A DNA stretch of 64,000 nt from Halomarinibacterium sedimenti (GCF_019312585.1 NZ_JAHWDP010000002.1:186001-250000), one strand, 5' to 3'. Shown: positions 2,587 to 24,279, counted from the stretch's first letter. Made by a program: numbers and translations. Notes: generated by a model from the letters alone, not told the origin.

Positions 2587-2592
2587 AGCGCT

Positions 2593-4749: not shown

Positions 4750-4799
4750 AACTATAAATATCCTTTAGCATTTGTTTACGGAAAACATTATTGCAAGAG

Positions 4800-5963: not shown

Positions 5964-6005
5964 AACTAAATAGATTTTAGTCAGAAGTTTTACTAATTTT
6001 AGGGA

Positions 6006-7667: not shown

Positions 7668-7668
7668 T

Positions 7669-8334
7669 ATGTTTTCAAAAGTGATTATTTCAGATGATTT
7701 CGATAGCGTAAACAAAAGTGTATTATCCATTGTTAATGAATTAAAAGTCAAAGAAGTTGAACAAGTTCAATATTGTGATGATGCCTATTTAAAAGTTAAA
7801 AAAGCACTATTAGATAATAATCCCTTCCAATTATTGGTTACGGATCTCTCCTATAAAGCGGACCACCGAGAACAAAAGTTTCAATCTGGAGAGGAATTAA
7901 TTAAAGCACTAAAACAAAGCGATTCCTCACTTAAAATCATTGTATATTCTGTAGAAGATCGTCCTCTTAAAATTAGAAAACTCGTGCAGGAATTAAACAT
8001 TGATGGCTATGTTAATAAAGGAAGGAGAGGCCTTGTGGAGCTTCAAGATGCCATTCGTAAGGTGGCTAAAAATGAGAAATATGTGTCCCCACATTTAGAA
8101 GGGATCTTAAAATCGAATAATAAAATTGAGTTCACCGAATATGATTCCCAATTAATGGGGTTACTTTCAAAAGGCTATTCTCAAGAGGAAATAAGTGCTT
8201 TTTTTGTTGAAAAAAATATAACACCTAGTAGTTTGAGTTCCATTGAAAAGAAATTAAACAAATTAAAAACTGAGTTTAAGGCAAACAATGCTGTTCATCT
8301 TGTGAGTATTGTTAAGGACTTGGGACTTATTTAA
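7669..8334 (+). CDS. Response regulator, NarL/FixJ-like
   Basis: 221 residues. The receiver domain shows the acidic pair Asp9-Asp10, phospho-acceptor Asp59 in LLVTDLSY and conserved Lys117 in YVNKG. The C-terminal about 70 residues form a helical domain with a LuxR-type layout (SKGYSQEEISAFF, then ITPSSLSSIEKKLNKLK). It is divergent from textbook LuxR HTH, so DNA binding is probable rather than certain. It is the partner of the kinase immediately upstream. A natural target would be the large VIT/plug gene that begins 155 nt downstream on the same strand. Confidence 0.85.
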   Translation: MFSKVIISDDFDSVNKSVLSIVNELKVKEVEQVQYCDDAYLKVKKALLDNNPFQLLVTDLSYKADHREQKFQSGEELIKALKQSDSSLKIIVYSVEDRPLKIRKLVQELNIDGYVNKGRRGLVELQDAIRKVAKNEKYVSPHLEGILKSNNKIEFTEYDSQLMGLLSKGYSQEEISAFFVEKNITPSSLSSIEKKLNKLKTEFKANNAVHLVSIVKDLGLI

Positions 8335-8489
8335 GTTACTCTTTACTAAAAATTATCTCCTTTTTCCAGATTTCCGAGTGGTGTAGAAAAAAAGTGTTTC
8401 CCTCACCCAAAACATCACTTCCCTCATTCCTCTTTTTATATATTATATTGAAATATGAATTTTAAGCTGTTAACTTAAAATCACTAACC

Positions 8490-11400
8490 ATGAAAAATAT
8501 TACTTTTCTTTTAATTCTATTAGGTGGCATTGCTGTAAAAGCACAAAGTACACCTAAGATAATGATGAATGATTCCTTGCAACTTCAACTTACAAGCCTT
8601 GAAGTAGAAACTAATATTACCGAAAATTACGCTGAAACAACCTATTATATGAAATTCTATAATTCATTAGATCGAATTATGGAAGGAGAACTTTCATTTC
8701 CGTTAGGAGAGGGACAATCTGTATCTAGATTTGCTATGGAAGTTAGTGGGCAGTTAAGAGAAGCTGTTATAGTAGAAAAAGAACTAGCCAGAGTAGCTTA
8801 TGAAAGTACGATACGCCAGAAGATTGATCCAGGCTTGTTAGAAAAAGTCGATGGCAATAATTATAAAGCAAGAATTTACCCTATTCCAGCAAAAGGATAT
8901 AAAGAGGTAATTGTTTCATATGAACAACCACTTCACACTCAAGATGGTCAAAAAATATATGAACTTCCATTAGGTATAGAAGAAACATTAAAACATTTTA
9001 AAGTTTCAGTTCAAATATTCTCTAGTAGCGAGCTGGCTCCTTCCACGTCTAACAACCCAAATGGGAAGTTAATATTCAATAAAAAAGGAGAGTCTTTTAT
9101 AGCAAATTTGGAAAAAAAGGATTTTGCACCAACTTTACCTATTATTATAAGAATTCCTTCTCAAATGGAGCATTTTAAAGCTCAAACTAGTGAAAATTAT
9201 TTTTATATAAATCAAACTATCCCTACAAAAACTCAACTAAAAAATAAGCCGAATAAAATTACAATCCTTTGGGATTCGTCCTATTCTCAACAGTATAGAA
9301 ACACTGCCATTGAAATGGAATTGTTAGAAAATTACTTTTCCTATCTTGGGAATGTAGCGGTACAATTGGTGGTTTTTAGCACTGCTATTCATCAAATAAA
9401 AGACTTTTCAATTTTAAATGGAGATTGGAGCACGCTAAAGAAGTATTTAAGCTCAGTTGTATATGATGGAGGTACAAACTACCTACAGCTAAAATCATTA
9501 AAGGCTACTGGAAAGGAAACTCTTTTGTTTTCAGATGGACTAGCTAACCTAGGTTCTTTTTATAAATTCAATAATAAACCTATTTATACTATAAATTCTA
9601 AAGTTTCCGCAAATCACGAACGCTTAGAAGAAATAGCAAATAAGACGGGAGGAAATTATATTAATCTTTTAAGGTTATCAATACCCTATGCAACTAAGGT
9701 CTTAAAAAGTGAACCTTATCAATTTTTAGGTATTAAAAACGCATCCTATACTTCAGAAGTCTTTCCTAAGGGACCTACAACAATTAAAGGCGATTTCTCA
9801 ATTGCTGGAGTTTTTGATAATAATAGTTCTATAACATTACAATTTGGTTATGGAGGAAAGGTAACAGAAGAAAAAACAATTCAGATATCTCATAATTCTT
9901 CACAGAATAAATTGATAAAAAGGCTTTGGGCTAAATTGAAACTTCAAGAATTAAATAAAAACAAAATAGAAAATAAAAACCAAATTATAGCTTTAGCAAA
10001 AGCAAATCATTTAGTAACAGATTTTACCTCCATGCTCATATTAGATAGGATTGAAGATTATGTCAAATATAAGATTGAACCCCCATCTGAATTATTGACT
10101 CAATACAAAGAAATGTTAGCAGCCAGTAAAGAAGCTGAAAAAGAACGATTAGAAATTATTGAAGAACGAAAATTAGATATAGAATCAGATTGTGAAGACC
10201 TTTTAGAATGGTATAATAAAAGTTTTCCTAAAAGATCTAGACCCAGTAAAACCAGAACTAGAGTCACAACCAATAATACTGAAAGCCAAAACACAAATTC
10301 AGAAAATAACACTATTAATCCTTCACAGGATATAGCTGATACGGATGACCAAAATACTACCACTAACGAGACGATGATTGAATCTGAACCTATAGACCCT
10401 AATACCCCATATATAACTGGAACTATTGTTGATGAACTCGGAGTTCCGCTCCCTGGGGCAAATATTCTAGTAAAAGGTACAACCCGTGGTACTCAATCAG
10501 ATTTTGATGGAAATTTTAGTATTCAGGCCAATGATGATGAGCTTTTAGAGTTTAGCTATGTTGGATTTCAATCAACGGTAAGAAGGGCAAATGACATAAA
10601 CAATGAAACATTAGAAATGCTTCCTGGCAGTCAATTAGAGGAAGTAGTAATTACGGGTTATTCAAGAAGACAAACCACTGCGGTAGGTTATGCCGTTTCA
10701 TCTGTTCAAAGTGAGTCTGTAGAAACTTCCATTGACCAACTATTGCAAGGCAAGGTTGCGGGTATTAATATTAATGAAGAAAACGGACAAAGTGGTAGTT
10801 CGGCTTCAGTAAAAATAAGAGGAGTGAGTACTGTTATTGGAAGTCCACTTTATATCATAGATGGAATATTTATTGAAGATGATTCGTCCCCAAATATAAC
10901 AACTGAAGATATTGAATCTATTACTATTCTTAAAAGTGAAGATGCTAGTAAACTTTATGGGGCAAAAGGAGTTAATGGTGTTATAGTTATAAGAACCAAA
11001 AAAGGAATGGAAGAAAAAAAAGACGAAATTGAAGCTTTAGATGCTAAAATTAATGAAGTTGCAACGCTTAAAAGCTGGGATGCCTCTTCACCATATTTAA
11101 ATATTCTAGAAAAGGAACCAACCGTTGAAAAAGCATACCAAAAATATTTAGAAATACGTGTTGATTATTCCAATACACCAACGTTCTACATTGATGTAGC
11201 CGACTTTTTTGCAGAGAAAAAAAGCATCGAAAATTCCTTAAAAGTACTTACCAATTTAATTGAAATTGACTTAGACAACCCTGAACTTTTAAAGGCATTG
11301 GCATATAAATTAGAATATTTTAATCAAAATAATTTAGCCGAAGAAGTCTATCAAAAAATACTCGAATTACGTCCAGAGTATTTTCAATCCTATAGAGACC

Positions 11401-11981
11401 TTGCTTTAATTTATGAAGCCAATGGGGCCTATCAAAAAAGTTATGATTTATTATATAAAATATACAGTGGAGAATTGGCAGAAAAAGATGAGGAAGAACG
11501 CTTTTATGGTATTGAACTTATTGCTTATGTAGAACTTTGCAGATTAGTCAATAAATATGGAAATAAGCTTTCGATTAGCAAAGCCGAAAAAGATGTTTTT
11601 AAAGAAATGCCAATGGATATCAGAATTGTTATTGATTGGAATCATGATGATACTGATATCGATTTATGGGTAACAGATCCTAAAAAAGAAAAAGCCTACT
11701 ACGGAAATAGTTTGACTGATTTGGGGGGGAGAATTTCTGAAGATATGACAGATGGTTTTGGTCCCGAAGAATACTTATTAAAAAAAGCTCGAAAAGGAGA
11801 GTACAATATAGAAGTAGATTATTTTGCTGATAATTATCAGAAGATATCTGGGCCAACAATACTTAAAGTGACTATGTATAAGAATTATGGCAAGAAAAAT
11901 GAAACTAAAAAATTAATAATTACCAGATTGGATAAAGAACAAGATGAAATTCTTATAGGAAATCTCCAATTCGATAATTAA
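8490..11981 (+). CDS. VIT/vWA - CarboxypepD_reg - TonB-plug - TPR - DUF2135 fusion
   Basis: 1163 residues with a signal peptide ending at about residue 19 (VKAQS). Domains in order: VIT (inter-alpha-trypsin-like, about 25-150); a vWA-like segment beginning ITILWDSSYS (about 255-400); a low-complexity Asn/Thr linker (590-635); a CarboxypepD_reg-like Ig domain (ITGTIVDELGVPLPGANILV, about 640-695); a SusC-type TonB plug (EEVVITGYS to VIVIRTKKG, about 716-840); TPR-like helices (about 880-1010); and DUF2135 (IDWNHDDTDIDLWVTDP, 1041-1160). There is no beta-barrel, so it is not a transporter. It is probably an exported surface scaffold. It follows the two-component genes and is closed by a strong terminator. 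Confidence 0.88.
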   Translation: MKNITFLLILLGGIAVKAQSTPKIMMNDSLQLQLTSLEVETNITENYAETTYYMKFYNSLDRIMEGELSFPLGEGQSVSRFAMEVSGQLREAVIVEKELARVAYESTIRQKIDPGLLEKVDGNNYKARIYPIPAKGYKEVIVSYEQPLHTQDGQKIYELPLGIEETLKHFKVSVQIFSSSELAPSTSNNPNGKLIFNKKGESFIANLEKKDFAPTLPIIIRIPSQMEHFKAQTSENYFYINQTIPTKTQLKNKPNKITILWDSSYSQQYRNTAIEMELLENYFSYLGNVAVQLVVFSTAIHQIKDFSILNGDWSTLKKYLSSVVYDGGTNYLQLKSLKATGKETLLFSDGLANLGSFYKFNNKPIYTINSKVSANHERLEEIANKTGGNYINLLRLSIPYATKVLKSEPYQFLGIKNASYTSEVFPKGPTTIKGDFSIAGVFDNNSSITLQFGYGGKVTEEKTIQISHNSSQNKLIKRLWAKLKLQELNKNKIENKNQIIALAKANHLVTDFTSMLILDRIEDYVKYKIEPPSELLTQYKEMLAASKEAEKERLEIIEERKLDIESDCEDLLEWYNKSFPKRSRPSKTRTRVTTNNTESQNTNSENNTINPSQDIADTDDQNTTTNETMIESEPIDPNTPYITGTIVDELGVPLPGANILVKGTTRGTQSDFDGNFSIQANDDELLEFSYVGFQSTVRRANDINNETLEMLPGSQLEEVVITGYSRRQTTAVGYAVSSVQSESVETSIDQLLQGKVAGININEENGQSGSSASVKIRGVSTVIGSPLYIIDGIFIEDDSSPNITTEDIESITILKSEDASKLYGAKGVNGVIVIRTKKGMEEKKDEIEALDAKINEVATLKSWDASSPYLNILEKEPTVEKAYQKYLEIRVDYSNTPTFYIDVADFFAEKKSIENSLKVLTNLIEIDLDNPELLKALAYKLEYFNQNNLAEEVYQKILELRPEYFQSYRDLALIYEANGAYQKSYDLLYKIYSGELAEKDEEERFYGIELIAYVELCRLVNKYGNKLSISKAEKDVFKEMPMDIRIVIDWNHDDTDIDLWVTDPKKEKAYYGNSLTDLGGRISEDMTDGFGPEEYLLKKARKGEYNIEVDYFADNYQKISGPTILKVTMYKNYGKKNETKKLIITRLDKEQDEILIGNLQFDN

Positions 11982-12001
11982 TACGATGTATTATAAAGCA
12001 A

Positions 12002-12035
12002 AAAATACCGCAACTATTTATGGTTGCGGTATTTT
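12002..12035 (+). terminator. Strong terminator of the VIT/plug gene
   Basis: A perfect 13-bp inverted repeat (AAAATACCGCAAC and GTTGCGGTATTTT) around an 8-nt loop, about 20 nt after the stop at 11981. The AAAA/TTTT ends make it usable in either direction. Confidence 0.85.
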
Positions 12036-12280
12036 AAATTTTGTCCCTTTCTAGGAATCCAAAGAAGTATAAAATACAGTAAAATGTATTTTTTTTTTGA
12101 GATTTAGGTTAGTGTCATATTATTTATAGTAAGTTGATTATCAAGGCGTAAGTCAATTTCAAGATATGATATAAGTATTAACACTTATATATTTTTCAAT
12201 GAAATCATCAATAATGTCTTAAAAAAATAAATTAAATTAAAGGGAATCCCTTTTAACCACTACTATAATAAAAATTCTAC

Positions 12281-12301
12281 CCGTACCTAAAACCGTACCT
12301 A
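12281..12301 (+). repeat. Two CCGTACCTA direct repeats beside left att copy
   Basis: CCGTACCTA at 12281-12289 and again at 12293-12301, 12 bp apart (one helical turn) and about 80 bp before the tRNA-derived repeat. The position and helical spacing resemble arm-type integrase binding sites; this role is inferred. Confidence 0.45.
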
Positions 12302-12381
12302 GATTTCAAAATTTTTTGTATATTTGAAAATATAACTACCTGATATTCAATAATTAAAAATATGAAAAAATCTCTATTCAA

Positions 12382-12428
12382 AATTCATAACCCGGAGGTC
12401 TCGAGTTCAAGTCTCGATCTCGCTACAA
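12382..12428 (+). repeat. Attachment-site copy: 3' half of tRNA-Met(CAT)
   Basis: 47 bp identical to 24181-24227. From CAT (12386-12388) it reads as tRNA positions 34-73: AA, anticodon 3' stem CCCGG, variable AGGTC, T stem TCGAG/CTCGA around TTCAAGT, acceptor 3' strand TCTCGCT and discriminator A. CCC at 39-41 is the hallmark of initiator tRNA-fMet. The sequence upstream (AAAAATATG...) cannot form the 5' half, so this is a displaced tRNA end (attachment site), not a working tRNA. Crossover in the anticodon loop is implied. Confidence 0.85.
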
Positions 12429-12431
12429 TGT

Positions 12432-12461
12432 AAAACCCAACACTGTGTGTTGGGTTTTTTT
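12432..12461 (+). terminator. tRNA terminator hairpin carried with the att repeat
   Basis: AAAACCCAACA, a 5-nt loop, then TGTTGGGTTTTTTT: an 11-bp stem with a T run, 7 nt after the tRNA-derived end. The right copy has the same stem with a different loop, so the homologous unit extends beyond the tRNA. Confidence 0.8.
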
Positions 12462-12676
12462 ATTTTGGTACGTTGGGAATTTATTTCCGTAAGTGGAAAA
12501 ATAAAAAACTGCAAAGCATTGCTTTGTGGGTTTTAATATTGTAAAAGCCTCCCTAAAGACTCAGCGACTGCAAGGAGCTAATTCTCAATCTTGCTACTTA
12601 ATGGAAACTATTAAAAAAAACAGCCGTTTGGGCTTTGTCTAAACCGTTTTTTATGTGTACCATTAATGACTACAGT

Positions 12677-13498
12677 TTATATATTCATTTCCACTTCATA
12701 TTGATTAACAGTATTCGATAATCCAATTGAATTGATGAAATCTATTTTCTCGCTTAATCTTGTATCAACATTTATTATTTTTATGGAGTTTGAAACTTCC
12801 TTAATCCCACTAAATAATCTATTCCAACACCCATCACTCTTTTTTAAAATCTCAAATTGTGCTAAATATTCATTCTTAGGGTTTACAATAAAATACGATT
12901 CGACCAAATTGTCTTTTATTAATTGATAGTATTTATAATCTCCATTTTTAAGCACTTCTGAATTAAAATCCCACGAATATAAATCTTGATTAGGCATTTT
13001 TTTCCAATCAAAAGTATTATAATCAACTTCATTCAACTCAATTTTTTCATTTGAGTTTAATTTAATTTCTCCGCTGAAACAATTAAATTCTTTACGTATA
13101 TCAAACCCAATGCTCTGATAAGATTTTATTGCTTTGCTATTTTCCATAATTACCTCTAGTAAACATTTCGTAATCCCACTAATTTTTAAATCTGGTATAG
13201 CAAAATCGTAGATTGATTTAACAATTCTTTTTCCTCTATATTCTGGAAGTACACCTGTAGCAGTATTAAATGCTATTTTTTCTCCATTTCGATTATCAAT
13301 TGCATGTATTATAAATCCAACCAAATTTTCTCCATCAAACATTCCATAGGAAAGGGCATAATCAACCTTCGCCATCTCCCACCTATTTTTATAATAGTTT
13401 TTGTCTGTGGGTACTTTAACAAAGTAGTTCTCAAAAGATCTTAAATAGCAAGTAGCTATTACATCAAATTCTATGTTATTTAATTTTTTTACTTTCAC
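12677..13498 (-). CDS. GNAT-family N-acetyltransferase
   Basis: 273 residues. The N-terminal half has GNAT layout: a central strand leading into TGVLPEYRGKRIVKSIYD (acetyl-CoA pyrophosphate loop, R-x-x-G-x-x type) around residues 82-99, then ENSKAIKSYQSIGF (about 123-136), the usual last helix and strand. The C-terminal half may be a second degenerate GNAT unit. It should acetylate an amine; the substrate is unknown. Last gene of the leftward operon that begins with the oxidoreductase at 15392, 44 nt after the hydrolase stop. Confidence 0.82.
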   Translation of the reverse strand: MKVKKLNNIEFDVIATCYLRSFENYFVKVPTDKNYYKNRWEMAKVDYALSYGMFDGENLVGFIIHAIDNRNGEKIAFNTATGVLPEYRGKRIVKSIYDFAIPDLKISGITKCLLEVIMENSKAIKSYQSIGFDIRKEFNCFSGEIKLNSNEKIELNEVDYNTFDWKKMPNQDLYSWDFNSEVLKNGDYKYYQLIKDNLVESYFIVNPKNEYLAQFEILKKSDGCWNRLFSGIKEVSNSIKIINVDTRLSEKIDFINSIGLSNTVNQYEVEMNI

Positions 13499-13542
13499 AA
13501 TTCTATAGATTATACTTTCTTAAATTGAACTAAGATATAGAG

Positions 13543-14400
13543 TTATTTGACACTTCTTATAATAGAGTTTTCAATAACTTCAAAATCCTTCCTGTTTGGA
13601 ACATGTTTAGATCCTTCCAATAAAAAAGCTTCTTCTAAAGAGGGAAAAATATCTTTAGCTCTTTTTATCATTTTTCTTCCTGGAAACATAATGTCCTTTT
13701 CTGCAGCAAAAAGGGTAATGGGAATTTTTACATTTTTTGCGGTCTGTTTTGAAATTATTGGTAAAGGTGAAAAATCCATATTACAGTATTGAAAAGTAGT
13801 TGACATAAAGGCTAATGCAAATTCGTCAAATTCAGAAAAAAGCGCATTCATTACTTTTAGAATGGATTCTTGATTATTTGTTTTTATAAACTTTTTCAAT
13901 GGTATGAACATTTTGAATAAACCTACAAGAGGATTACCATTAACGATAAAAACTGGCGCAATTAAGAATACTTGTCTTATAGGTGTTTCATTAAACTCTA
14001 GTGCTTTTAAGCTAATGAGTCCACCAAAAGAAAAACCAACTAAGGCTACATTTTTTAGTCTTAGTTTTATAATCACTTCGATAAGCCATTTACCATAATC
14101 TAAAGATTTCATGTCTAATCTATTCTCAGCGCTTTTATTGGGTTGTGCTAGTACATCTACTGCATAAACACAATATTTTGAGGCTAAATTGGGGAAGGAA
14201 TCTAAAATTTGAGGGGCACAACCTCCTGTACCATGAATGAGCACTAAAGGAGGTTTTCTAGTATCTCCAGTTATAATAACATTAGTGACTCCAAACTTTG
14301 TTTCTAACAATTTTTCTGAATATTCAATATTCAGCTCATCTAACTTTTGATTGTATAGGGTTATAATTTTTTCTTTCCCTTCTTTTGATTTGAAAAACAT
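13543..14400 (-). CDS. Alpha/beta hydrolase
   Basis: 285 residues of alpha/beta-hydrolase fold. HGTGG near residue 56 forms the oxyanion region, GFSFGG (nucleophile elbow, Ser near 124) follows, then AAEKDIMFPG with the acid Asp and GSKHVP with the catalytic His near the C-terminus. All three catalytic positions are present. No signal peptide, so cytosolic. It starts 29 nt after the oxidoreductase stop and shares its promoter. The family covers esterases, C-C hydrolases and lactonases; no substrate can be assigned. Confidence 0.88.
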   Translation of the reverse strand: MFFKSKEGKEKIITLYNQKLDELNIEYSEKLLETKFGVTNVIITGDTRKPPLVLIHGTGGCAPQILDSFPNLASKYCVYAVDVLAQPNKSAENRLDMKSLDYGKWLIEVIIKLRLKNVALVGFSFGGLISLKALEFNETPIRQVFLIAPVFIVNGNPLVGLFKMFIPLKKFIKTNNQESILKVMNALFSEFDEFALAFMSTTFQYCNMDFSPLPIISKQTAKNVKIPITLFAAEKDIMFPGRKMIKRAKDIFPSLEEAFLLEGSKHVPNRKDFEVIENSIIRSVK

Positions 14401-14429
14401 AGACTGTTCGATTTTTAATTGATTTTGAT

Positions 14430-15392
14430 TTATGGATTGACGATTACTATATTACCCACTTTACGACCAGTTTCAAGATAGTGATGAGCTTCTGCGATAT
14501 CTGGAAGCTTGTAGCTTTTATCGATATTTGTATAAAGTTTACCTTGTTTAAAAAAGTCTACCAATTCTAAAAATAATCGTTTTAACTCCTCAGTCTTTTT
14601 TATGCCTGTAGCTGCAAATTTTACTTTCTTTGGATTTAATAACGTTTGACAAAGTATTTGACCACTTAATACTGGTGTCATAAAAATACCGTTAGAACTT
14701 ATTAGGTTTTTAGTGTCTTTATATGATAAGGTTCCAACCGAATCATAAATTACATTATACTTCTCATTAATATTAGTTATTGATGTTTTTGTGTAATCTA
14801 TTACTTTATCGGCTCCTATAGATTTTACAAAATCAATATTTCTTGTGCTACAAACTGCTGTAACTTTTGCTCCCATTACTTTTGCTAATTGAACTGCTGC
14901 TGAACCCAAGCTTCCTGAAGCACCATTAATTAAGATATGTTGCCCTGGTTTTAAATCTGCAATATCTTTTAAGAAGTTATAAGAGGTTAAAAACCCATCG
15001 CAAATTGGTGCAGCCTCTGCATGAGAAATGGTATTGGGTTTTATCTCTAAAACTAAATCTTCTGCAATACATAAATAATCTGCATTGCAACCATTGCTAA
15101 ATAGTTTTTCACCAAAAACTTCATCACCTACTTTAAATTTTGTGATTTGCGAACCTACAGCCTCTACCACTCCAGAAAAACCAGTTCCTAAAGCTGTGTT
15201 CTTGGGTTTAAATAAACCTAAAAACAATCTGCCAAATTTAGGTATACCTTGGCGCATCATTGTATCTGCTCTTGTTACTGATGATGCCTTCATTTTTACT
15301 AAAATCTCATTTGGTTTTGGTGAAGGAATTTCAACATCAATTATCTGAATAACTTCTGGGGAACCGTATTTTGTATAAATTGCTGCTTTCAT
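14430..15392 (-). CDS. NAD(P)-dependent quinone-oxidoreductase-like MDR protein
   Basis: 320 residues of the medium-chain dehydrogenase/reductase superfamily. The GroES-like N-terminal domain opens with MKAAIYTKYGSPEV, and the nucleotide loop is GASGSLGSAAVQLAK (about 152-166). The zinc-ligand cysteines of alcohol dehydrogenases are not evident, so it is of the zinc-free quinone oxidoreductase type. It would reduce a quinone, enone or similar with NADPH. First gene of an operon with an alpha/beta hydrolase and a GNAT. Promoter site C lies directly upstream. Confidence 0.88.
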   Translation of the reverse strand: MKAAIYTKYGSPEVIQIIDVEIPSPKPNEILVKMKASSVTRADTMMRQGIPKFGRLFLGLFKPKNTALGTGFSGVVEAVGSQITKFKVGDEVFGEKLFSNGCNADYLCIAEDLVLEIKPNTISHAEAAPICDGFLTSYNFLKDIADLKPGQHILINGASGSLGSAAVQLAKVMGAKVTAVCSTRNIDFVKSIGADKVIDYTKTSITNINEKYNVIYDSVGTLSYKDTKNLISSNGIFMTPVLSGQILCQTLLNPKKVKFAATGIKKTEELKRLFLELVDFFKQGKLYTNIDKSYKLPDIAEAHHYLETGRKVGNIVIVNP

Positions 15393-15410
15393 AATTACTC
15401 TTATTTATTG

Positions 15411-15461
15411 CAAAGTTGAACTTAATTAAGATATTGAAGGTTCGTGTTTTACAATCGGAAC
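15411..15461 (-). promoter_or_regulatory. Promoter site C with GTTC-N14-GAAC operator
   Basis: GTTC...GAAC spans 15440-15461. Exactly 21 bp nearer the gene is CAACTTTG on the minus strand (15411-15418), one base from the Bacteroidota -7 box TAnnTTTG. The start codon of the oxidoreductase is 18 nt further. Spacing is identical to sites A and B. Confidence 0.6.
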
Positions 15462-15468
15462 ACTATTT

Positions 15469-16254
15469 CTACAAATAGGGTGAACCAACTACATGAAAAA
15501 CCAAATCCCAAACAACATGCACAATTATTGCTACTAGTAAACCACGTTTCCAATACACCCAACCAAAGAAAGACCCTGTAATAAGATTACCTGTCAAAGT
15601 AGAACCTACAGTTACCAAAGTGAGATTTGAAAAATTTTTTGATAGCGGTAAATGCATTAAACCAAAACATAGTGCAGTAATAATTATACCCACCCAAACC
15701 ACGCTTGTAGATGGTTTAATCTCTTTTTCAAAACGTTGAATTAATGCTATAATTAGAGACATTAATCCCAATCGAAACATAATTTCTTCCGTAATTCCTG
15801 CTGAAAATGAAACAATAGCATAAAACGGTTTAGAAGGTCTTTCAATAATACTTGTTACAGGAAAGTAATCAACAATTAGTTTATGAACCAAAAGCATTAC
15901 CAATGCTAAGACTACACTAAGAACTACAGGAAACAATAGCGCTTTAAAAAAATGATTCTGCGTTCTGTTTTTTTGATTTGAAAAGAAACGTTCTATTACC
16001 GGTGCTCCCAATTGTGCTTTCCTTGACAACCATAATCCAACAAAAACTAAAATTACACCTAAAACAAAACCATAAATTCCTGTTTGTATTACATCACTTG
16101 TAATGGAATCTGACAGCTTTACGTTTGTATCACCTGCCTCAATTTTTAATCGTTTTAATTCTCTACTAAATGGAATATTTAGAAGCGCACCTAATACGAA
16201 TAGAATAACTACAACCGTTGCAGTTTTAATGCGATTTTTATTACTCGCTATCAT
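15469..16254 (-). CDS. CPBP-family intramembrane metalloprotease
   Basis: 261 residues with about seven hydrophobic segments. The CAAX-protease/bacteriocin-processing (CPBP) signature is complete: EEIMFR (about 157-162), then HLPLSKN and a final helix with HVVWD. The Glu-Glu, His and Asp residues would bind the metal. Such proteins cleave or process membrane substrates; some give immunity to bacteriocins. The start overlaps the DUF6624 lipoprotein gene by 14 nt, showing translational coupling in the operon 17592 to 15469. Confidence 0.88.
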   Translation of the reverse strand: MIASNKNRIKTATVVVILFVLGALLNIPFSRELKRLKIEAGDTNVKLSDSITSDVIQTGIYGFVLGVILVFVGLWLSRKAQLGAPVIERFFSNQKNRTQNHFFKALLFPVVLSVVLALVMLLVHKLIVDYFPVTSIIERPSKPFYAIVSFSAGITEEIMFRLGLMSLIIALIQRFEKEIKPSTSVVWVGIIITALCFGLMHLPLSKNFSNLTLVTVGSTLTGNLITGSFFGWVYWKRGLLVAIIVHVVWDLVFHVVGSPYL

Positions 16255-16912
16255 TAAGTTTTGCTAATTCAAATTCTCTAGTTCTTCTTATTTGTTCTTC
16301 AAGATTCCATTCAAAATCAAATCTATTCTTAAGGAACACAGAGATTGAATCGAGCCCAATTTCAGTTCTTCTTTTATCTATGTTTTCAGGATCGTAAACG
16401 GGCCATAAATTAAAACTTTTGGTTTCTGGGTAATATTTCATCTGTCCACCATAGATTTGTAAATCCCCTCTTTCTGTTGCAATTCTATCTTCAGCTCTTA
16501 CCAAGAATCGAGGCTCTAGTTTTTTATCCTTAACAGCTTGTTTCATCAATGGAAGATACTGTATCCTAACATCATTATCTGAGTGTTGTATAACATTACA
16601 AATTGTCCAATTACCACGTTCTCCAATCATATCCTTAGTTGGCCAACCATGTTTTTCTAGAATATTTTTCACTCTATCTTCATTAACTATATGATTTTTA
16701 TCTATAATTAACTGCTGTTCTTTTACTAGCTCTGAGTCAACACCATGTATAGCCATTAATGAATCTCTTAGTCTGATTGGTTCTTGTTCTGTTTTCCAAA
16801 TATCATCAATTAGTGCTATTAAGTTATCTTCCTTTGCCTCTCTGATTTTGGTATTACATGAAGTAAATACTAATAGCACTAAAAGAGTCAATAAATAATA
16901 CGTTTTTTTCAT
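16241..16912 (-). CDS. DUF6624-like lipoprotein
   Basis: Start chosen at ATG 16912 because MKKTYYLLTLLVLLVFTSC then forms a clean lipoprotein signal (lipobox Cys19). An in-frame ATG at 16942 would add ten residues in front. The mature part contains HGWPTKDMIG, VIQHSDNDVRIQYLPL, a DRI...QIYGGQ strand and DPENIDKRR, the order seen in the DUF6624 family, whose function is unknown. It lies between the outer-membrane protein gene and the CPBP gene, overlapping the latter. Confidence 0.78.
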   Translation of the reverse strand: MKKTYYLLTLLVLLVFTSCNTKIREAKEDNLIALIDDIWKTEQEPIRLRDSLMAIHGVDSELVKEQQLIIDKNHIVNEDRVKNILEKHGWPTKDMIGERGNWTICNVIQHSDNDVRIQYLPLMKQAVKDKKLEPRFLVRAEDRIATERGDLQIYGGQMKYYPETKSFNLWPVYDPENIDKRRTEIGLDSISVFLKNRFDFEWNLEEQIRRTREFELAKLNDSE

Positions 16913-16974
16913 TTTCTTATACTTTTTAAATACTTGATTCATTTATTGACTCTTATATTATTTTGTTCAATCTT

Positions 16975-17592
16975 TTACAACCAGCTCAGCCCTAATCCTA
17001 CATTAAAGATTACTGCATCTCTATGCGCATCTCCATCTAAAGACGTGCGACCTAGAACTAATTTAGACTGCACATTAAGAGCGAAGTTATTCTTTTTATA
17101 AATTTCGTAACCTGTACTTGCCATAACAGCACATCCAAAGTTCCAGTCGTCATTTACATTGTCTTTAATATCATACAGTGCTGGCGAATCTATGGCTAGA
17201 CCAATACCTCCATGAATCCACCAACGATCTTTTACCCAATATTGTAGTGATGGAATAAAACCTCCAAAGTTCCTGTCATTATCTTGAAATTCGTATATGT
17301 TTCCTGGCATTGCAGCAGTAATGGCGAGTTTTTCGTTTAACATATAGCCAAACTTTACATCTGGAAAAACGAAGGTTCCTTGCGCTTTGTCAAACGTTTG
17401 AATCCCAGCACTATCTTCTATACTGATAATACCACCACCTACTACGAATTCGAAGATAAAACCATCTCTTTGTGTGGTGGTTTCAGAATTTGTGTTTTGC
17501 GCATATGTTGTACTTGATACTAATGCAAAGGCAACACAAGCCATTCTTAATAAAATTTGTTTTTTGATTGTTTTCATTTTAATTGTTTTCAT
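16975..17592 (-). CDS. Outer-membrane beta-barrel-like protein
   Basis: Start chosen at ATG 17592 (MKTIKMKTIKKQILL), which gives a normal signal peptide ending at TTYAQ. The frame could extend to 17646 but would cover the promoter region. 205 residues with alternating hydrophobic/aromatic strands, ending in GLGLSWL as outer-membrane barrels often do. It resembles small 8-strand OmpW/OmpA-type barrels, but no family is certain. First gene of the operon with a DUF6624 lipoprotein and a CPBP protease. Confidence 0.7.
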   Translation of the reverse strand: MKTIKMKTIKKQILLRMACVAFALVSSTTYAQNTNSETTTQRDGFIFEFVVGGGIISIEDSAGIQTFDKAQGTFVFPDVKFGYMLNEKLAITAAMPGNIYEFQDNDRNFGGFIPSLQYWVKDRWWIHGGIGLAIDSPALYDIKDNVNDDWNFGCAVMASTGYEIYKKNNFALNVQSKLVLGRTSLDGDAHRDAVIFNVGLGLSWL

Positions 17593-17900
17593 AATTGTTC
17601 GTTTTTTGATTAATAATTGATTGATGATGTTTTTAATTGAGTGCAAATTTCCTATAAAAAACAGGTGATTATGAAGCTAAATAACCGAACTGTTGATTTA
17701 GAATGATGAATTGTTGATGATCAATAACGTCTTATACTATTTCTGTTTAAAACCAATTAACGCAGTTACGCAATTGGTGAAATCTACTATTTTTGCTTAC
17801 TTCTGAATTTCTTTTGTGGTAGTATTTATCCTTTTAAAAAAACAGAAAACTATTATTGGATTGGAATAAGAATTTCAGCTACTATTAATATTAACTATTT
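17593..17900. other. Leader and promoter region of the outer-membrane protein operon
   Basis: About 308 bp between the 52-residue membrane-protein gene and the barrel gene. It holds promoter D (17644-17718) and a leader of about 45 nt. The rest, up to 17900, is AT-rich and I see no gene, terminator hairpin or repeat in it. Confidence 0.5.
17644..17718 (-). promoter_or_regulatory. Promoter D sharing a 32-bp block with promoter E
   Basis: On the minus strand a -7-like GAAATTTG (17644-17651) lies 35 bp from a 32-bp block at 17687-17718 that begins (plus strand) GAACTGTTGATTTA. The serine-hydrolase promoter at 21781-21855 has the same block with 30/32 matches and the same 35-bp gap, so both should be driven by one regulator. 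Confidence 0.6.
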
Positions 17901-18059
17901 CTATTTTGTTTTTTTTTGAGTACCATATTCAAGCGCTGCTCCTATAGCAATACCCAGTACAAACCATAATGCCATATTTGATGTTAAATACCCTACTACG
18001 GTTCCTAAAATGATTCCTATTCCAAGTTTGACTCCTTTTTTAGTTTTTTTTGTCTTCAT
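17901..18059 (-). CDS. 52-residue small membrane protein
   Basis: ATG 18059, stop TAG at 17901-17903. The basic N-terminus MKTKKTKKGVK is followed by two short Gly-rich hydrophobic helices (about 11-24 and 31-44) of glycine-zipper style and a basic tail TQKKTK. Small Gly-rich membrane proteins like this are common in Flavobacteriaceae and unassigned. Promoter site A lies 36-86 nt upstream, the expected place for its own promoter. Confidence 0.65.
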   Translation of the reverse strand: MKTKKTKKGVKLGIGIILGTVVGYLTSNMALWFVLGIAIGAALEYGTQKKTK

Positions 18060-18094
18060 TTTTTCTATTGTTTGTATTCTTAATTGATTTATGA

Positions 18095-18145
18095 TAAAAT
18101 TACAATCGCTTCATGAATGAATAGTTCTGCTTTAAAAATTAGAAC
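18095..18145 (-). promoter_or_regulatory. Promoter site A with GTTC-N14-GAAC operator
   Basis: GTTC...GAAC at 18124-18145, then exactly 21 bp, then TAATTTTA on the minus strand (18095-18102), one base from TAnnTTTG. It lies between the amidohydrolase stop and the 52-residue gene, so it most likely drives the latter. Same arrangement as sites B and C. Confidence 0.6.
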
Positions 18146-18153
18146 CAATTGTA

Positions 18154-19713
18154 TTAATCGGCAAACTGCACTCGTATTAATGGACTATTTAATAAGCTTA
18201 TAAAAGTCTTCACATTCATATGAAAACTACTAGCGGCTGTTTCTGTAAACTCTTTTAATTCTGTGAGTTTCTCTACATCGTAATACACACCACTTAACAA
18301 CACTCCATAAATGTTTTGTGAATTTTTAATATTTTCTAAAGGATTTTTATTTAGTAAAACAAGATCAGCTTTCTTGCCTATTTCAACAGAGCCATAATCT
18401 TCTTCTATGTTTGAGAATTTTGCAGGTATTATAGTAGCCGACTGCAGTGCCTCAAGGTTAGATAGTCCGCTTCTTGTTAATTCATACAATTCGTCATGTA
18501 AACTAAATCCAGCAAACACATAAGAATCTGTAACATCGGTTCCTATCATGATGGGTACGCCCAATTTATTAGCCATAGCTACTTGCTTTTTTGAAGCTTC
18601 AAAAAATTGCTCACTTACAATATTCCCTAGACTTTCGAGGTTTTTCTCCTTGTTATAATCTGTATCGTACTTCCACCAAAGTTGCTTTCTAACGTTGGTT
18701 ACATATTTAAGATTTTCATTATTAGTAAAGCTATCTTTATGGGCGTTAGCTTCAAATTTTAGGGTTTGAAGTGTTGGTGTCCAATAGGCGTCTTTTTGAT
18801 TCATAAGGCGCATTAATTCTTTTGCTTGTACCGTATCAAATTGTTGTACAATTTTTAGCTTTGATTTAGAAAAATATTGTTTCCAATTTGTTGGATTCTT
18901 TAAACTATCAGCTTCTGGAAAACACTCATACAGAAATATGCGTCCATGTTCAAAACTTCTCTGTCCCCAATTGATAGCTTCTTCTAAGCTTAAAAACATA
19001 GGTTTATGACCTGCTAGATGAATACCATATCCAGCTGCTTTCTCAGCCAAAACTTTGTAGGTTTCTTTTGGTAATTGCTGATACACCTTTATAAAATCTA
19101 CATTTTCCTTTTTATAAAATTGTAATAACGAATCTACTTGTAAAGGATTTTGTAGTTTAAAAAAGTCTGGTGCATCTTCAGGAATAGCTTTTTCACCATC
19201 CATTTGGTAACTACTTTGCAGTACGTATCTCGGTGTAACTCTCTTATTGCTTTCTAGTTCTTTATTCCATTGCATTCTTTCTTTACTACCAACCCAATAA
19301 CTATCCTTTTCGTTTAATTGGCCAGACATGTCTCTAACACTTGTAACACCATTTGCAATATATAGTGGATGATGTAACCATTCTGAATGTTGATTAGAAT
19401 GTGTGTGCATATCCCACAAACCAGGAATGAGAAATTTACCTGTCCCATCAATTATTAAAACTTTCTCAGAAACGTTGATTTTAGTAGAATCAATTTTTGT
19501 AATTCTAGATTTTTCAATTAAAACATATTGATTGTAAGCAATGTTACCTGTTTCAACATCAATAATATTTACATTATTAATGATTGTTTTTTCGAAAGAT
19601 ACTGGTGGTTGCAATGTGGAAGTTGGCCACAAATAGGCACCAGTGATTGTGATAATTACTAATACAATTATTGCAATCACAACTTTTAAAAAATATTTAA
19701 ACTTTTTTTTCAA
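18154..19713 (-). CDS. Membrane-anchored amidohydrolase
   Basis: 519 residues. One N-terminal hydrophobic helix (about 9-28) places the enzyme outside the cytoplasmic membrane. The body is an amidohydrolase-superfamily barrel: GLWDMHTHSNQ supplies the HxH metal ligands, AGHKP and EHGR follow, then MIGTDV with the last metal/catalytic Asp, and GKKADLVLL closes the small beta domain. It is of the imidazolonepropionase/prolidase-like group that hydrolyses cyclic amides or peptides. The gene begins 53 nt after the serine-hydrolase stop, so the two hydrolases probably share promoter E/B. Confidence 0.87.
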   Translation of the reverse strand: MKKKFKYFLKVVIAIIVLVIITITGAYLWPTSTLQPPVSFEKTIINNVNIIDVETGNIAYNQYVLIEKSRITKIDSTKINVSEKVLIIDGTGKFLIPGLWDMHTHSNQHSEWLHHPLYIANGVTSVRDMSGQLNEKDSYWVGSKERMQWNKELESNKRVTPRYVLQSSYQMDGEKAIPEDAPDFFKLQNPLQVDSLLQFYKKENVDFIKVYQQLPKETYKVLAEKAAGYGIHLAGHKPMFLSLEEAINWGQRSFEHGRIFLYECFPEADSLKNPTNWKQYFSKSKLKIVQQFDTVQAKELMRLMNQKDAYWTPTLQTLKFEANAHKDSFTNNENLKYVTNVRKQLWWKYDTDYNKEKNLESLGNIVSEQFFEASKKQVAMANKLGVPIMIGTDVTDSYVFAGFSLHDELYELTRSGLSNLEALQSATIIPAKFSNIEEDYGSVEIGKKADLVLLNKNPLENIKNSQNIYGVLLSGVYYDVEKLTELKEFTETAASSFHMNVKTFISLLNSPLIRVQFAD

Positions 19714-19766
19714 AATTGAATTTTATGAGTGTTATTCAGTACTATCTGTTAGATAATTAATAAGGT

Positions 19767-21740
19767 TTATCGAAGCTTAACCGCCTTTTGTCCGTAAAGG
19801 ATAAATGAATTAAAGTCACTCGACTTTAAAAATTTAATATCTACTCCAGTGTTTGGGTTGATAAAGCTTATTTCATCGCCTTTTACAGGAACGAGCTTAT
19901 AAGTATCCCCATTTGGAAAGTGAAGTGAGATTTGGTTTGTTTCATCATTAAAACTTATAGAAAGTTCCACTTGACTATTCCATTTGTATGTGCCTGTAAG
20001 TTGTTTTAATAATTCTGAATCTAACTGATTTCGTATAGCAGATGTACGTTTAAAGTGATTCCAATTGTATAATTGTGAAGCAGATAACAGCAACTCATTA
20101 CCAAGAGCACCACCATTATCTGAATTGATTAAATAGACCAATCCTTTACCAGTATTAAGATCTATGGTCATACCAGTGCGATATCCAGCATTACCACCAT
20201 AATGGGTAATTGCAAAACCTGAATCTGACTTATCTACTATTAATCCATAAATATGTCCATCACGTTCTTGATTTAGTATCGATTGAATTTCTGACTTTGA
20301 AAAGATTGAACTTTGACCTTGATAGCCTTTGTAAATTTCAATTAAAAACTTAGCCATATCAGTAGCATTACTCCAAAGTCCAGCTGCCGCCTGTTCTGGA
20401 TGGTTTCTCCAACCACCTTCTAAAACAACTCCATTTGACGTATACCCTTTTGCGACTTCGCTTGAGTCTGATAGTTGCAATGGTTGTGTGAATTCTGAAT
20501 TCTCCATACCAATAGGTTGAAGTATCCATTGGTTCATAATATTTGAAAAATCATCATTAAAAACATCCTGAAGTGCCACCTCAGCTAAGGTATATCCACC
20601 ACCCGAATACGCTAACATTTCATTAGGGGTTGAAATAACTTCTATTGCTGGTGAATTAACGCCTTCACTACCTTTTAATACAGCAATATCACTTGGAATA
20701 GCAAGGTCTTTAGCATAGCCTTGATATCCTCCTGAAGTAATACCAGAAGTATGCGCAAAGATATTTCGTAAGGTTACTGGATTTTCAGCAGTTTGTTTAC
20801 CTTGTGGTAATTTGTAACGCTTCAAGTATTTTTCAATATTCTCATCTAAGTCAATTTTTCCTGCTGTATGCATACGTAAGGTGGCAAAAAAAGTTACGGG
20901 TTTCGATAAGGATGCAGCTTGAAAAATACTAGAGTAGTTTAAGTTTTGCTCTGAAAAACTTGGGTTTTGATACATATCTGCCCATTCTATTTTACCATCA
21001 TTGATGACCGCAAGCGATAGGGCAGGTATTTTATAGTCGACCATTTTATTTACTATAGTGCTAAAGTTCTCTGGCTCTTCCAGAAACTTCACTTTTCCAA
21101 TAATCTGATTCTCTAATTGGACTTTACTTTTTGAAGGCTTATCAGAATATTCAATTAGCTCTTCGTTATAAACAAAATCATCTTGTTTTTGAGTTAGCTT
21201 AATAAAGTTTTTAACTCCAGGGGCGTATAGCCAAACCTCATCTACAACTGCATTATATCCTCTAGAATTTGTGATATTACCATTATAATGAATGGTGTAC
21301 GCCATAAAAGTTCCTGCATCTACTGTTTCTTCTTTATAGGATAACACTTCAGCGTTCATTTGCTGTTTTCCTGTTGTACCATCTTGACTTGTCCAATTTT
21401 CTTCATAAACCCACTTTTTTCCTACCTTAAGTGGCCAATCGTATTTTGGCGTATCGCTTTCTTCAGGCTTTGCCATTTCTGCAACAGGAATCGTATCCTT
21501 ACCAATGGTTATATTTAACTCACCGTTAACTTCTATTATTTCTCGAGTATCTGTCCCTTCAGACCTTACTTCTCCTTGGGTAGTTACGCCTTTATACTTC
21601 CATACCCATTTCTCTCCAATAGCATAATCGGTTAGGGTTGGTTGTTGAGTTATACCTAATTTAGCTTTCTTATTACAGGCACTAAGGATTACCAAAGCAA
21701 ATAGTAAAATAAATCGATTTTTCATTTTAATTGATTTCAT
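19767..21740 (-). CDS. Serine hydrolase, beta-lactamase/PBP class-C type, lipoprotein
   Basis: 657 residues. A lipoprotein signal (FALVILSAC, lipobox Cys near 22; in-frame ATGs at 21740 and 21725 are both usable). Residues about 35-200 form an unassigned beta-rich domain. The class-C beta-lactamase-like domain follows: ASLSKPV with the SxxK serine (about 291-297), YSGGGY in place of the YxN motif, and HYGGNAG in place of KTG. Such proteins are usually esterases or D-amino peptidases rather than true beta-lactamases. A C-terminal small domain closes the protein. It forms an operon with the amidohydrolase. Confidence 0.88.
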   Translation of the reverse strand: MKSIKMKNRFILLFALVILSACNKKAKLGITQQPTLTDYAIGEKWVWKYKGVTTQGEVRSEGTDTREIIEVNGELNITIGKDTIPVAEMAKPEESDTPKYDWPLKVGKKWVYEENWTSQDGTTGKQQMNAEVLSYKEETVDAGTFMAYTIHYNGNITNSRGYNAVVDEVWLYAPGVKNFIKLTQKQDDFVYNEELIEYSDKPSKSKVQLENQIIGKVKFLEEPENFSTIVNKMVDYKIPALSLAVINDGKIEWADMYQNPSFSEQNLNYSSIFQAASLSKPVTFFATLRMHTAGKIDLDENIEKYLKRYKLPQGKQTAENPVTLRNIFAHTSGITSGGYQGYAKDLAIPSDIAVLKGSEGVNSPAIEVISTPNEMLAYSGGGYTLAEVALQDVFNDDFSNIMNQWILQPIGMENSEFTQPLQLSDSSEVAKGYTSNGVVLEGGWRNHPEQAAAGLWSNATDMAKFLIEIYKGYQGQSSIFSKSEIQSILNQERDGHIYGLIVDKSDSGFAITHYGGNAGYRTGMTIDLNTGKGLVYLINSDNGGALGNELLLSASQLYNWNHFKRTSAIRNQLDSELLKQLTGTYKWNSQVELSISFNDETNQISLHFPNGDTYKLVPVKGDEISFINPNTGVDIKFLKSSDFNSFILYGQKAVKLR

Positions 21741-21780
21741 AATTATAAGTTTATGATTGATGCTTTTTTAAATTAAGATG

Positions 21781-21855
21781 CAAATTTCCCTTTAGAAAAT
21801 AGGCTTTAGGAATTTTAATATCTGAACTGTTGATTTAAAATGATGAATTGTAGAT
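21781..21855 (-). promoter_or_regulatory. Promoter E, near copy of promoter D
   Basis: -7-like GAAATTTG (minus strand, 21781-21788), a 35-bp gap, and the 32-bp block at 21824-21855. Similarity to promoter D continues into the leader and the first codons (both genes start ATGAAAnCAATTAAAATG), so the cassette looks duplicated. Confidence 0.6.
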
Positions 21856-21914
21856 TTACAATAAGTTCTTGATACTTTTTAGTTTTCAATTCTACATTTT
21901 CATTTAATTCTTGA

Positions 21915-21965
21915 CAAAATTAAGTGGACTACAGAATTAAAACGTTCTACTTTAAAAATCGGAAC
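21915..21965 (-). promoter_or_regulatory. Promoter site B with GTTC-N14-GAAC operator
   Basis: GTTC...GAAC at 21944-21965, 21 bp, then a perfect TAATTTTG on the minus strand (21915-21922) matching TAnnTTTG. It touches the regulator's stop codon (21965) and would give a long-leader transcript of the serine-hydrolase operon, in addition to promoter E. Confidence 0.6.
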
Positions 21966-23767
21966 TAATTCTCTAGATGAGATTTAAGGTAAGTATTTGG
22001 TGTTATCCCTTCTAATTTTTTAAAGAATGTATTAAAAACTGTTTTAGAGTTAAAACCACTATCATAGGCCACAGCCATTATAGTTAACTCTTTGCTTTCT
22101 TCTTGAAGAATACGTTCTTTAAATTCATTTACTCTAAAGGTATTGACATATTCAGAGAAGTTTTTTTGAAATCCTAGGTTTAATAATTGAGAGACGTAAT
22201 TGGCAGGAAGTTCTAGGTAAGAGGCTAAATCTTTTAAGGAAAGATCTGGGTTTAAGTAGAGTTTATAATCCAACATAATCTGCTCTAATTCTTTTGTGTA
22301 CCTCTCAATTTCATCACTATCCAGCAATGCCTGCTTGTACTTTTTTTTCTGCTTATAGTTTACATTATCAGGAATGGCTTTTAGCATAATATCTTTAAAC
22401 CTTTTGTGATGTTTTACATGCTTAAGAATTGGTGATGGATTCAATAGCAAAACTAATGGTAAACGGTTATTATATGCTTGCTCTACTAAATCAATTACCT
22501 TTTCACAATTATCTAACAAGGCATTAACCAATATCAAAAATGTAAATGCCTTATCTACTAGTGCCGTTGTTAAATACGTCTCTAGTTCTTTAATCCCATC
22601 ATTGCATTTTTCCGCTTCATTAAGGTAGGCATAACACATGGTTTCACCTCCTAATTTGGTGAGGTCTTTCACAGAAACTCCTTCAAGTGAACCAAAATAT
22701 GTCAAAGCTTCATTTGGCTTGCCTGACATTAATAAACTTATTCCTATGTAGATTGGTGGAAAAGGTAACTTAGGGTCTAAATCCAATGCCTTTTTTAGAT
22801 ACGGTATTGCAGTTGTATAATCTTCTTGCAAGTAATATAAAAACCCTCTATAATGATGGTTGATAGCGGCATAAGGGTCTAGCTGCAACGCTTTGTCAAG
22901 ATAATTATGTGCTGCATCTAATTTTCCTTCTACTGTCAAAAAATTAGAAATGGTTAGGTAAATATCGTCTGCTTGTTGAATTTCCAAAGCCCTATTGGCA
23001 TGTTCGTAAGCTTTCTTGAGATTCCAGTTTTGCCAACATTCTATCCAGGCCAAATTCAATTGCGACCTTGACGAGTTTGGGTCTAGCTCTAATGCCTTTA
23101 ACAAATAAGGCTGGGCCTTTTCGTATGCTTCAAATGCAGGTAAAAGGCCCATGGTTCCCATATTAACATAGGCTAGATTTATATCTAGATAGGGATTTGA
23201 AAAATTGGGTGATTTATGTATTACGTCTTTTAAGATTTTGATACCCTTTATAGAGTTTTTATAATCTAGTTTCATGATGTAGTACCTTCCTTTCAAATAT
23301 TCTCTATAAATAGCTACAGGTACATCAATTGGTTCTACTAGTTTATTTTCTATTTCGAGATGACCAATATGCTCCCGTAATTTTTCTGCTATAAACAAAC
23401 CTATTTCATCCTGTATCTGAAAAATATCATCTGGTTTTCTATCAAAAGTTTCTGACCAGAAATGAAAGTCATCTATAGTATCAATCATTTGCACGGTAAT
23501 GCGCATTTTATTTCTAGATCTTCTCACACTGCCCTCAATAAAGGTAGCTACCTTTAATTTTTCTCTAATTTCTTTAGCAGTTACGGCTTTGTTTTTAAAA
23601 TAAAATGATGAGGTACGAGAGGTTACAGCTAAGTCTTTTATCTTGGCAAGGGCATTTATAATCTCTTCTGTTAAACCATCACAAAAAAACTCATTCTCTA
23701 GGCTATTACTCATGTTTTGAAATGGTAATACAGCGATAGATTTATTATTTAAGTTTTCAGATCCCAT
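21965..23767 (-). CDS. AraC-type regulator with FlgO/TolB-like and TPR domains
   Basis: 600 residues, soluble. The N-terminal about 140 residues (SIAVLPFQNMSN, FCDGLTEEIINAL, then FIEGSVRRSRNKMRITVQMID) match the FlgO/TolB-N-like domain found in front of TPRs in many regulators. TPR units follow (about 155-400; EKAQPYLLKALELDPNSS, NYLDKALQLDPYAA). The last about 100 residues are an AraC HTH pair (LSLKDLASYLELPANYVSQL, then AVAYDSGFNSKTVFNTFFKK). It is the first gene of island B and the only regulator there. I infer it acts on the repeated promoter motifs downstream. Confidence 0.85.
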   Translation of the reverse strand: MGSENLNNKSIAVLPFQNMSNSLENEFFCDGLTEEIINALAKIKDLAVTSRTSSFYFKNKAVTAKEIREKLKVATFIEGSVRRSRNKMRITVQMIDTIDDFHFWSETFDRKPDDIFQIQDEIGLFIAEKLREHIGHLEIENKLVEPIDVPVAIYREYLKGRYYIMKLDYKNSIKGIKILKDVIHKSPNFSNPYLDINLAYVNMGTMGLLPAFEAYEKAQPYLLKALELDPNSSRSQLNLAWIECWQNWNLKKAYEHANRALEIQQADDIYLTISNFLTVEGKLDAAHNYLDKALQLDPYAAINHHYRGFLYYLQEDYTTAIPYLKKALDLDPKLPFPPIYIGISLLMSGKPNEALTYFGSLEGVSVKDLTKLGGETMCYAYLNEAEKCNDGIKELETYLTTALVDKAFTFLILVNALLDNCEKVIDLVEQAYNNRLPLVLLLNPSPILKHVKHHKRFKDIMLKAIPDNVNYKQKKKYKQALLDSDEIERYTKELEQIMLDYKLYLNPDLSLKDLASYLELPANYVSQLLNLGFQKNFSEYVNTFRVNEFKERILQEESKELTIMAVAYDSGFNSKTVFNTFFKKLEGITPNTYLKSHLEN

Positions 23768-24180
23768 TACTTGTAATTTCTATCGAAATAGCTAAAGAAA
23801 TGATTGATATTAAATAAATAACAATGATAATTTTTAGATGATAATTTTTAAGAATAATGTATGACAATCTTACTTGTAACCTAAAAAAGGCACTCTAAAT
23901 AAATTAATATAATAGACAGTAAAATTTACAACTAATATTTACACAACAATGATGCAACGAATATAAATAAAATGGGATAGTTAGACAATAAACAAGAAGA
24001 GGTGGTATGAAAAGAAGGATTACAGATACTTATTACCAAATGTCCAAAAAGATTTATATTTGAATATTATATAAATCGAAAGCCTAAAACTGCATACGTT
24101 TTGCATACGATTTTGAATACGTTTTTATATTTAAGCAATTATAAAACCTTAATTATCAGTGGTTTTTAAAATACTCTAGG
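23768..24180. other. Non-coding right end of island B
   Basis: 413 bp with no credible gene. It is very AT-rich and contains the promoter region of the regulator and the GCATACG-type repeats at 24092-24121. No integrase fragment was recognised. Confidence 0.55.
24092..24121 (+). repeat. Three GCATACG-type direct repeats beside right att copy
   Basis: GCATACG at 24092-24098 and 24103-24109 and GAATACG at 24115-24121, at 11-12 bp spacing, about 60 bp before the tRNA-derived repeat. The layout matches the CCGTACCTA pair at the left copy, but with a different sequence. Arm-type recombinase sites are a plausible reading. Confidence 0.45.
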
Positions 24181-24227
24181 AATTCATAACCCGGAGGTCT
24201 CGAGTTCAAGTCTCGATCTCGCTACAA
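24181..24227 (+). repeat. Attachment-site copy: 3' half of tRNA-Met(CAT)
   Basis: Identical over 47 bp to 12382-12428; the match breaks at 24228 (A here, T at left) and resumes into the terminator stem. Same tRNA reading as the left copy, again without a 5' half. It marks the junction between island B and what looks like ancestral chromosome. Confidence 0.85.
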
Positions 24228-24230: not shown

Positions 24231-24258
24231 AAAACCCAACATAATGTGTTGGGTTTTT
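24231..24258 (+). terminator. tRNA terminator hairpin at right att copy
   Basis: AAAACCCAACA and TGTTGGGTTTT form the same stem as at 12432-12461, with a different loop, followed by T6. Confidence 0.8.
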
Positions 24259-24279
24259 TATTCAGTACAATTCTGATTA

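Follow-up and report, generated by a model that had tools for sequence, protein, structure and literature searches.

Three integrative elements probably stacked in one elongator tRNA-Met gene of Halomarinibacterium sedimenti

The 64,000-nucleotide stretch analysed here (the window; bases 186001-250000 of the 580,342-base contig C8, in a genome of 2.96 Mb and 15 contigs) very probably holds part of an array formed by three integrative elements in one elongator tRNA-Met gene, a reading in which expression of the first integrase, int1, by read-through is included as an inferred part. Rightward from the tRNA on C8, the array consists of island I1, a tRNA fragment, island I2, a second fragment (window 12382), island I3 and a last fragment (24181), after which the chromosome resumes. 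The whole is a classical tandem accretion with a CIME-like remnant.

Attachment cores, target tRNA and empty site

The 47-nt block AATTCATAACCCGGAGGTCTCGAGTTCAAGTCTCGATCTCGCTACAA occurs as a direct repeat at window positions 12382-12428 and 24181-24227; the identity of the two copies, noted in an earlier sequence-only reading, was exact on re-checking. Taken with the terminators behind them, the copies form a 79-nt match at 95% identity. The 41-nt core has four exact copies in the whole genome, all on the plus strand of C8 (141224, 165177, 198386 and 210185), and a reversed-pattern control over the same genome gave 0 matches; therefore, the repeat is not due to chance. Neither copy in the window has a 5′ tRNA half, as had been claimed, since ARAGORN finds no tRNA in these 64 kb. 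The intact tRNA-Met(CAT) predicted to lie to the left was located by the same program at C8:141190-141264, 44.7 kb from the window, with the expected 3′ end; the program reports one such gene there. It was not the initiator-like tRNA that had been proposed: the GGCGAGG acceptor and the GGA/CCC anticodon stem are those of an elongator tRNA-Met, and the initiator is a separate gene on contig C1, with a CGCGGGA acceptor, a GGG/CCC stem and a 1-72 mismatch. The attachment core starts in the anticodon loop and runs as far as the 3′ terminus of the tRNA (CTAC), in agreement with the earlier remark that homology begins in this loop, and we infer that the loop is also the crossover point.

The sequence-only reading had counted two successive integrations at the tRNA 3′ end. 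The succession stands, but the number does not: because of a further tRNA fragment at C8:165177, the islands are three, namely I1 (C8:141265-165176, 24.0 kb), I2 (C8:165218-198385, 33.2 kb) and I3 (C8:198427-210184, 11.8 kb). The part of the array that falls in the window, together with the chromosome beyond it, has the following features:

1-12381, no strand: right-hand part of I2, delimited by the cores at C8:165177 and 198386, by int2 left of the window and by matching arms
12283-12301, plus strand: right-arm sites of I2, two GTACCTA copies at 12-bp spacing, the motif also present in the first codons of int2
12382-12428, plus strand: attachment core at the I2/I3 junction, anticodon loop to CTAC, an exact core match
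12432-12461, plus strand: intrinsic terminator resembling the native empty-site terminator of relatives
12575-12597, plus strand: decayed tRNA-Met 3′ end (score 25, equalled or exceeded in 3 of 2000 shuffles)
12600-12669, plus strand: I1-type left-end relic with leader, terminator hairpin plus T-run (12620-12652) and, at 12653, the integrase start codon; it scores 76, whereas shuffles reach 42 at most
12677-23767, minus strand: cargo genes of I3, with stretches 80-88% identical in other genera
24091-24124, plus strand: right-arm sites of I3, TGCATACG, TGCATACG and TGAATACG, as in I1
24181-24227, plus strand: outermost attachment core of the array, an exact core match
24231-24259, plus strand: native terminator of the tRNA, from which the islands now separate it, matching the empty-site terminators of loci L036, L037 and L043
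25800-28760, minus strand: genus-level chromosomal block outside the islands (DUF2207, LemA, MsrA), also beside hisS in the same-genus genome G001
29180-30550, minus strand: hisS, neighbour of tRNA-Met in empty-site relatives

Relatives with an empty site, a search suggested by the earlier reading, were located via the neighbouring algH gene. In them algH and an aminotransferase gene are followed by tRNA-Met, and hisS starts 88 bp past the tRNA in L036 and after ~0.7 kb in L037; in the array genome hisS lies ~74 kb from tRNA-Met. The empty site was taken from other genera because the contigs of G001 end before the site and hold no junction. Between the last core and hisS lie ~4.9 kb with the DUF2207, LemA and MsrA genes. 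As this block stands beside hisS in G001 too, it is older than the islands; its interpretation as a fourth island was rejected for now on the same ground and for want of a core beyond it. Neither int1 nor int2 has a strong match in G001, which is 79% complete. At six further loci (L040, L044, L047, L049, L051 and L052) the tRNA-Met gene has these neighbours too but lies on the opposite strand, having been inverted locally.

Contents and boundaries of the islands

The earlier reading saw no integrase in the visible parts and proposed searching the flanks for a tyrosine recombinase. This search was productive: I1 and I2 each have an integrase left of the window, while it is true of I3 that it lacks its own and retains only a relic. 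The I1 integrase, int1 (444 aa, C8:141319-142653, PF00589), lies directly behind the tRNA, and the I2 integrase, int2 (427 aa, C8:165274-166557, PF00589), directly behind the second core. TGCATACG occurs three times at 12-bp spacing within the first codons of int1, and near-identical triplets of this type are found left of the cores at C8:165177 and 210185. GTACCTAAAA repeats are likewise placed for I2, in the first codons of int2 and left of the core at C8:198386. Because matching arm sites are present at both ends, I1 and I2 are each bounded as units. With a PF00589 integrase behind the core, repeats of the tRNA 3′ end, an intact tRNA and an empty site in relatives, both have the characters of tyrosine-integrase tRNA elements. 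Pfam searches revealed no relaxase or conjugation genes among the scanned I1-I3 proteins, and no phage structural or replication genes in I1-I3, so that the islands were classed neither as ICEs nor as prophages or phage satellites.

The cargo of I1 is devoted to metal resistance (two P-type ATPases, RND/CusB/OEP efflux genes, a MerT-like gene and a Fur-family regulator). I2 carries defence-type genes, including type III restriction and modification genes, a GmrSD-type protein, a PD-(D/E)XK nuclease and a UvrD helicase, followed by a block with weak tubulin-like and FtsA-like matches and by a TPR histidine-kinase-like pair. The large proteins of this block (window 605-5492 and C8:177427-191492) have these weak matches only, and the same interval encodes two SNase-fold proteins, a gag-type aspartyl protease and an OmpA-like protein; the block as a whole could possibly form a multi-gene system of unknown kind. 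The G+C content is 0.341 in I1, 0.325 in I2 and 0.318 in I3, compared with 0.363 in the left flank, 0.378 in the DUF2207 block and 0.360 in the right flank.

This anatomy suggests a route of accretion. Each element would bring a copy of the 3′ part of the tRNA (anticodon loop to CTAC), followed by a terminator of its own. The tyrosine integrase would recombine this copy with the tRNA, which would gain a new 3′ end and terminator, and the displaced 3′ end would be left as a fragment beyond the element. Position suggests the order of arrival: I1, nearest the tRNA, would presumably be the youngest, then I2, then I3.

Tandem arrays of this kind are already known. Tycheposons of marine Prochlorococcus combine a tyrosine recombinase, borders made of tRNA 3′ ends and stacked cargo elements; the present array resembles them in these traits, a likeness of description. 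In Dehalococcoides, several islands stand in tandem behind one RNA gene, ssrA, the target being tmRNA and the enzyme the serine recombinase DsiB (PMC3146451). Shared with them are the tandem arrangement, exact 3′-end borders, some islands without integration genes, the lack of conjugation genes and variable cargo. In contrast to the tmRNA, DsiB and a core starting from the T-loop there, we find here an elongator tRNA-Met, tyrosine integrases and a core starting from the anticodon loop.

Island I3 as a remnant

I3 encodes a GNAT acetyltransferase, an alpha/beta hydrolase, a zinc-type dehydrogenase, a CAAX protease-like protein, a DUF6624 protein, a 223-aa protein of unknown kind, an amidohydrolase, a beta-lactamase-fold protein and a TPR-AraC regulator; integrase and transfer genes are absent from it, a loss that characterizes a CIME. 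At its left end, the core is followed by a native-like terminator, the decayed tRNA-Met 3′ end, an int1 leader and about five integrase codons. Its right end is of I1 type, with ~135 bp that align with I1 and include a block of ~42 identical bases. The int1 relic on the left, the loss of the rest of the integrase and the I1-type right arm together identify I3 as a remnant of an I1-type element. It keeps cores at both ends and right-arm sites, and no left-arm repeats were found near its left core. As the integrase is lost while a core at each end and the I1-type right-arm sites are retained, I3 is CIME-like, and an I1-type integrase might still move it in trans. Similar accretion is described for streptococcal CIMEs and IMEs, where an element loses its integration genes but keeps its att sites, and more elements enter the same att site (PMC5704250). 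I3 and the array follow this course in the loss of integration genes, the retention of att cores and further integrations at the same att; they differ in that I1-I3 yielded no relaxase or transfer gene, the left-arm sequence of I3 is only a relic, and mobilisation is here a prediction.

That I3 is ordinary chromosomal DNA, trapped between two cores by rearrangement, is very improbable and largely refuted. Its ordinary-looking enzymes, the missing integrase gene and the native-like terminators behind both cores would fit such an origin, but it has the I1-type right arm and left-end relic, its G+C content is below that of the flanks, it is absent from the empty site of relatives, and DNA similar to it occurs in tRNA-Met islands elsewhere. 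Stretches of its cargo are 80-88% identical at the DNA level in other genera, and in three genomes (G201, G126 and G240) I3-type cargo lies between two Met-tRNA cores, which indicates that such islands are a vehicle for cargo of this kind.

The layering of I3 is odd in that the inner tRNA relic is decayed and the outermost core is perfect. Simple layering leaves this combination unexplained: either I3 moved as a unit, or the cores were refreshed by recombination. I3 may not be the oldest layer, and could have entered, or re-entered, as a finished integrase-less unit through an I1-type integrase acting in trans; by then it would have held both the decayed relic and a terminator captured from another host. 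Two perfect outer cores around a decayed internal relic, right-arm sites of I1 type and I3-type cargo in tRNA-Met islands of other genera favour this course; yet no I3-sized integrase-less unit between two cores was seen elsewhere, and recombination could also keep cores identical, so we regard it as possible but lean the other way.

Three side observations concern the sequence of I3. The TPR-AraC regulator, 223-aa protein, alpha/beta hydrolase, DUF6624 and dehydrogenase genes recur as a cluster, in variable order across genera and partly in tRNA-Met islands (loci L208-L227, in genomes G201, G126, G062, G255, G234, G099, G293, G308, G315, G248, G069 and G178). A 92-nt element, 75% identical between its two copies (window 17642-17733 and 21779-21870), precedes the 223-aa-protein and beta-lactamase-fold genes and may serve both as an operator for the nearby TPR-AraC regulator. 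The stretch at window 12462-12574 (~110 bp), which separates the native-like terminator from the decayed tRNA relic, may be all that is left of one more element.

The int1 family and the terminator before its start codon

Members of the int1 family were found in 46 of 300 Flavobacteriaceae genomes (E ≤ 1e-60). A Met-tRNA 3′ end directly precedes the integrase in 68 of the 71 int1 loci read, the remaining three being without a core; 31 of the 68 were scored as intact initiator, 22 as intact elongator and 15 as fragments (L195 is maybe a misread elongator). A tree of 34 members, made by a quick method and with several weak forks, contains at least eight switches between initiator and elongator targets, and two near-identical integrases (L117 and L118) lie at different Met tRNAs. 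The genome of the array itself has a second element of the family (L013, C1:335304-336572), behind the initiator tRNA-fMet. Several int2 relatives are found at tRNA-Leu. By a hand count, which is a rough proxy for islands at Met tRNAs, roughly 85-90 of the 300 genomes have three or more cores. An origin of int1 from a phage or plasmid is unsupported, the best relatives in phage records being 33% identical, with none in IMG/VR; a sequence search of PDB returned no relatives at E 0.001. No description of tRNA-Met islands in Flavobacteriaceae was found in the open literature, which does not prove absence, and the int1 elements are apparently an undescribed, common family of tRNA-Met elements.

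In 67 of the 71 loci a hairpin and T-run stand just before the int1 ATG. In 65 of these 67 an unbroken T-run adjoins the ATG (exceptions, L176 and L131). The distance from core to ATG is 51-56 nt in 65 of the 67. Covariation supports the hairpin: in 9 of the 11 pairs both partners vary, and pairing holds in 96.3% of cells, versus 79.1% in shuffles and at most 54% in slid versions (relatedness only partly controlled). The promoter element TAnnTTTG was found between core and ATG in none of the 67 int1 leaders; within 60 nt upstream of the tRNA it is present at 40 of 52 intact-tRNA loci (2.8 in shuffles). A promoter of other type may exist in the leader. Since there is no consensus promoter between tRNA and integrase, int1 is probably made only by rare read-through from upstream, and with a terminator in between, such rare transcription would keep the integrated element quiet.

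It is nearly an even prospect that the terminator is a mere replacement for that of the tRNA, with no role in integrase expression, its contact with the ATG reflecting a compact left end. A terminator also comes with I2 and most int2 relatives, which leave a gap before the ATG, the join being clear only in L149 among int2 relatives; having a terminator is thus explained by tRNA termination alone. The near-constant spacing and ATG contact across 67 diverse leaders, however, and the missing promoter element speak against this account. Read-through may instead be the design: in the int1 family the integrase would be a product of Met-tRNA transcription, the element's terminator replacing that of the tRNA and its U-run ending at the AUG, so that leakiness and the start-codon hairpin set the dose, with close relatives using initiator and elongator. 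We propose this only tentatively. The join of hairpin, T-run and ATG was also seen behind tRNA-Leu (L199) and, in L149, before an int2-type integrase at an initiator tRNA, and therefore extends beyond int1 at Met tRNAs. A loose pattern for this join, applied across the order, gave many chance matches, and no count was taken from it.

In the self-regulated tRNA-integrase pair of KplE1, intS likewise lies directly behind a tRNA of the same orientation, with arm-type sites at the integrase start and a mapped promoter in attL (PMC2951348). The likeness to int1, in its place behind the tRNA and its arm sites at the integrase start, suggests control through attL; unlike intS, int1 has no consensus promoter there and has a terminator directly before its ATG. 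We found no earlier description of a terminator set against an integrase start codon.

Gene transfers at this one site have left a stack that can still be read, with an old layer recognisable in it. Elements of the int1 type are common in Flavobacteriaceae and stand behind Met tRNAs almost without exception, here in company with metal-resistance and defence-type genes; being both common and tied to Met tRNAs, they could allow many unannotated islands to be delimited by one sequence pattern. A terminator placed against the integrase start codon would be a simple way to quiet the integrase while the tRNA stays properly terminated.
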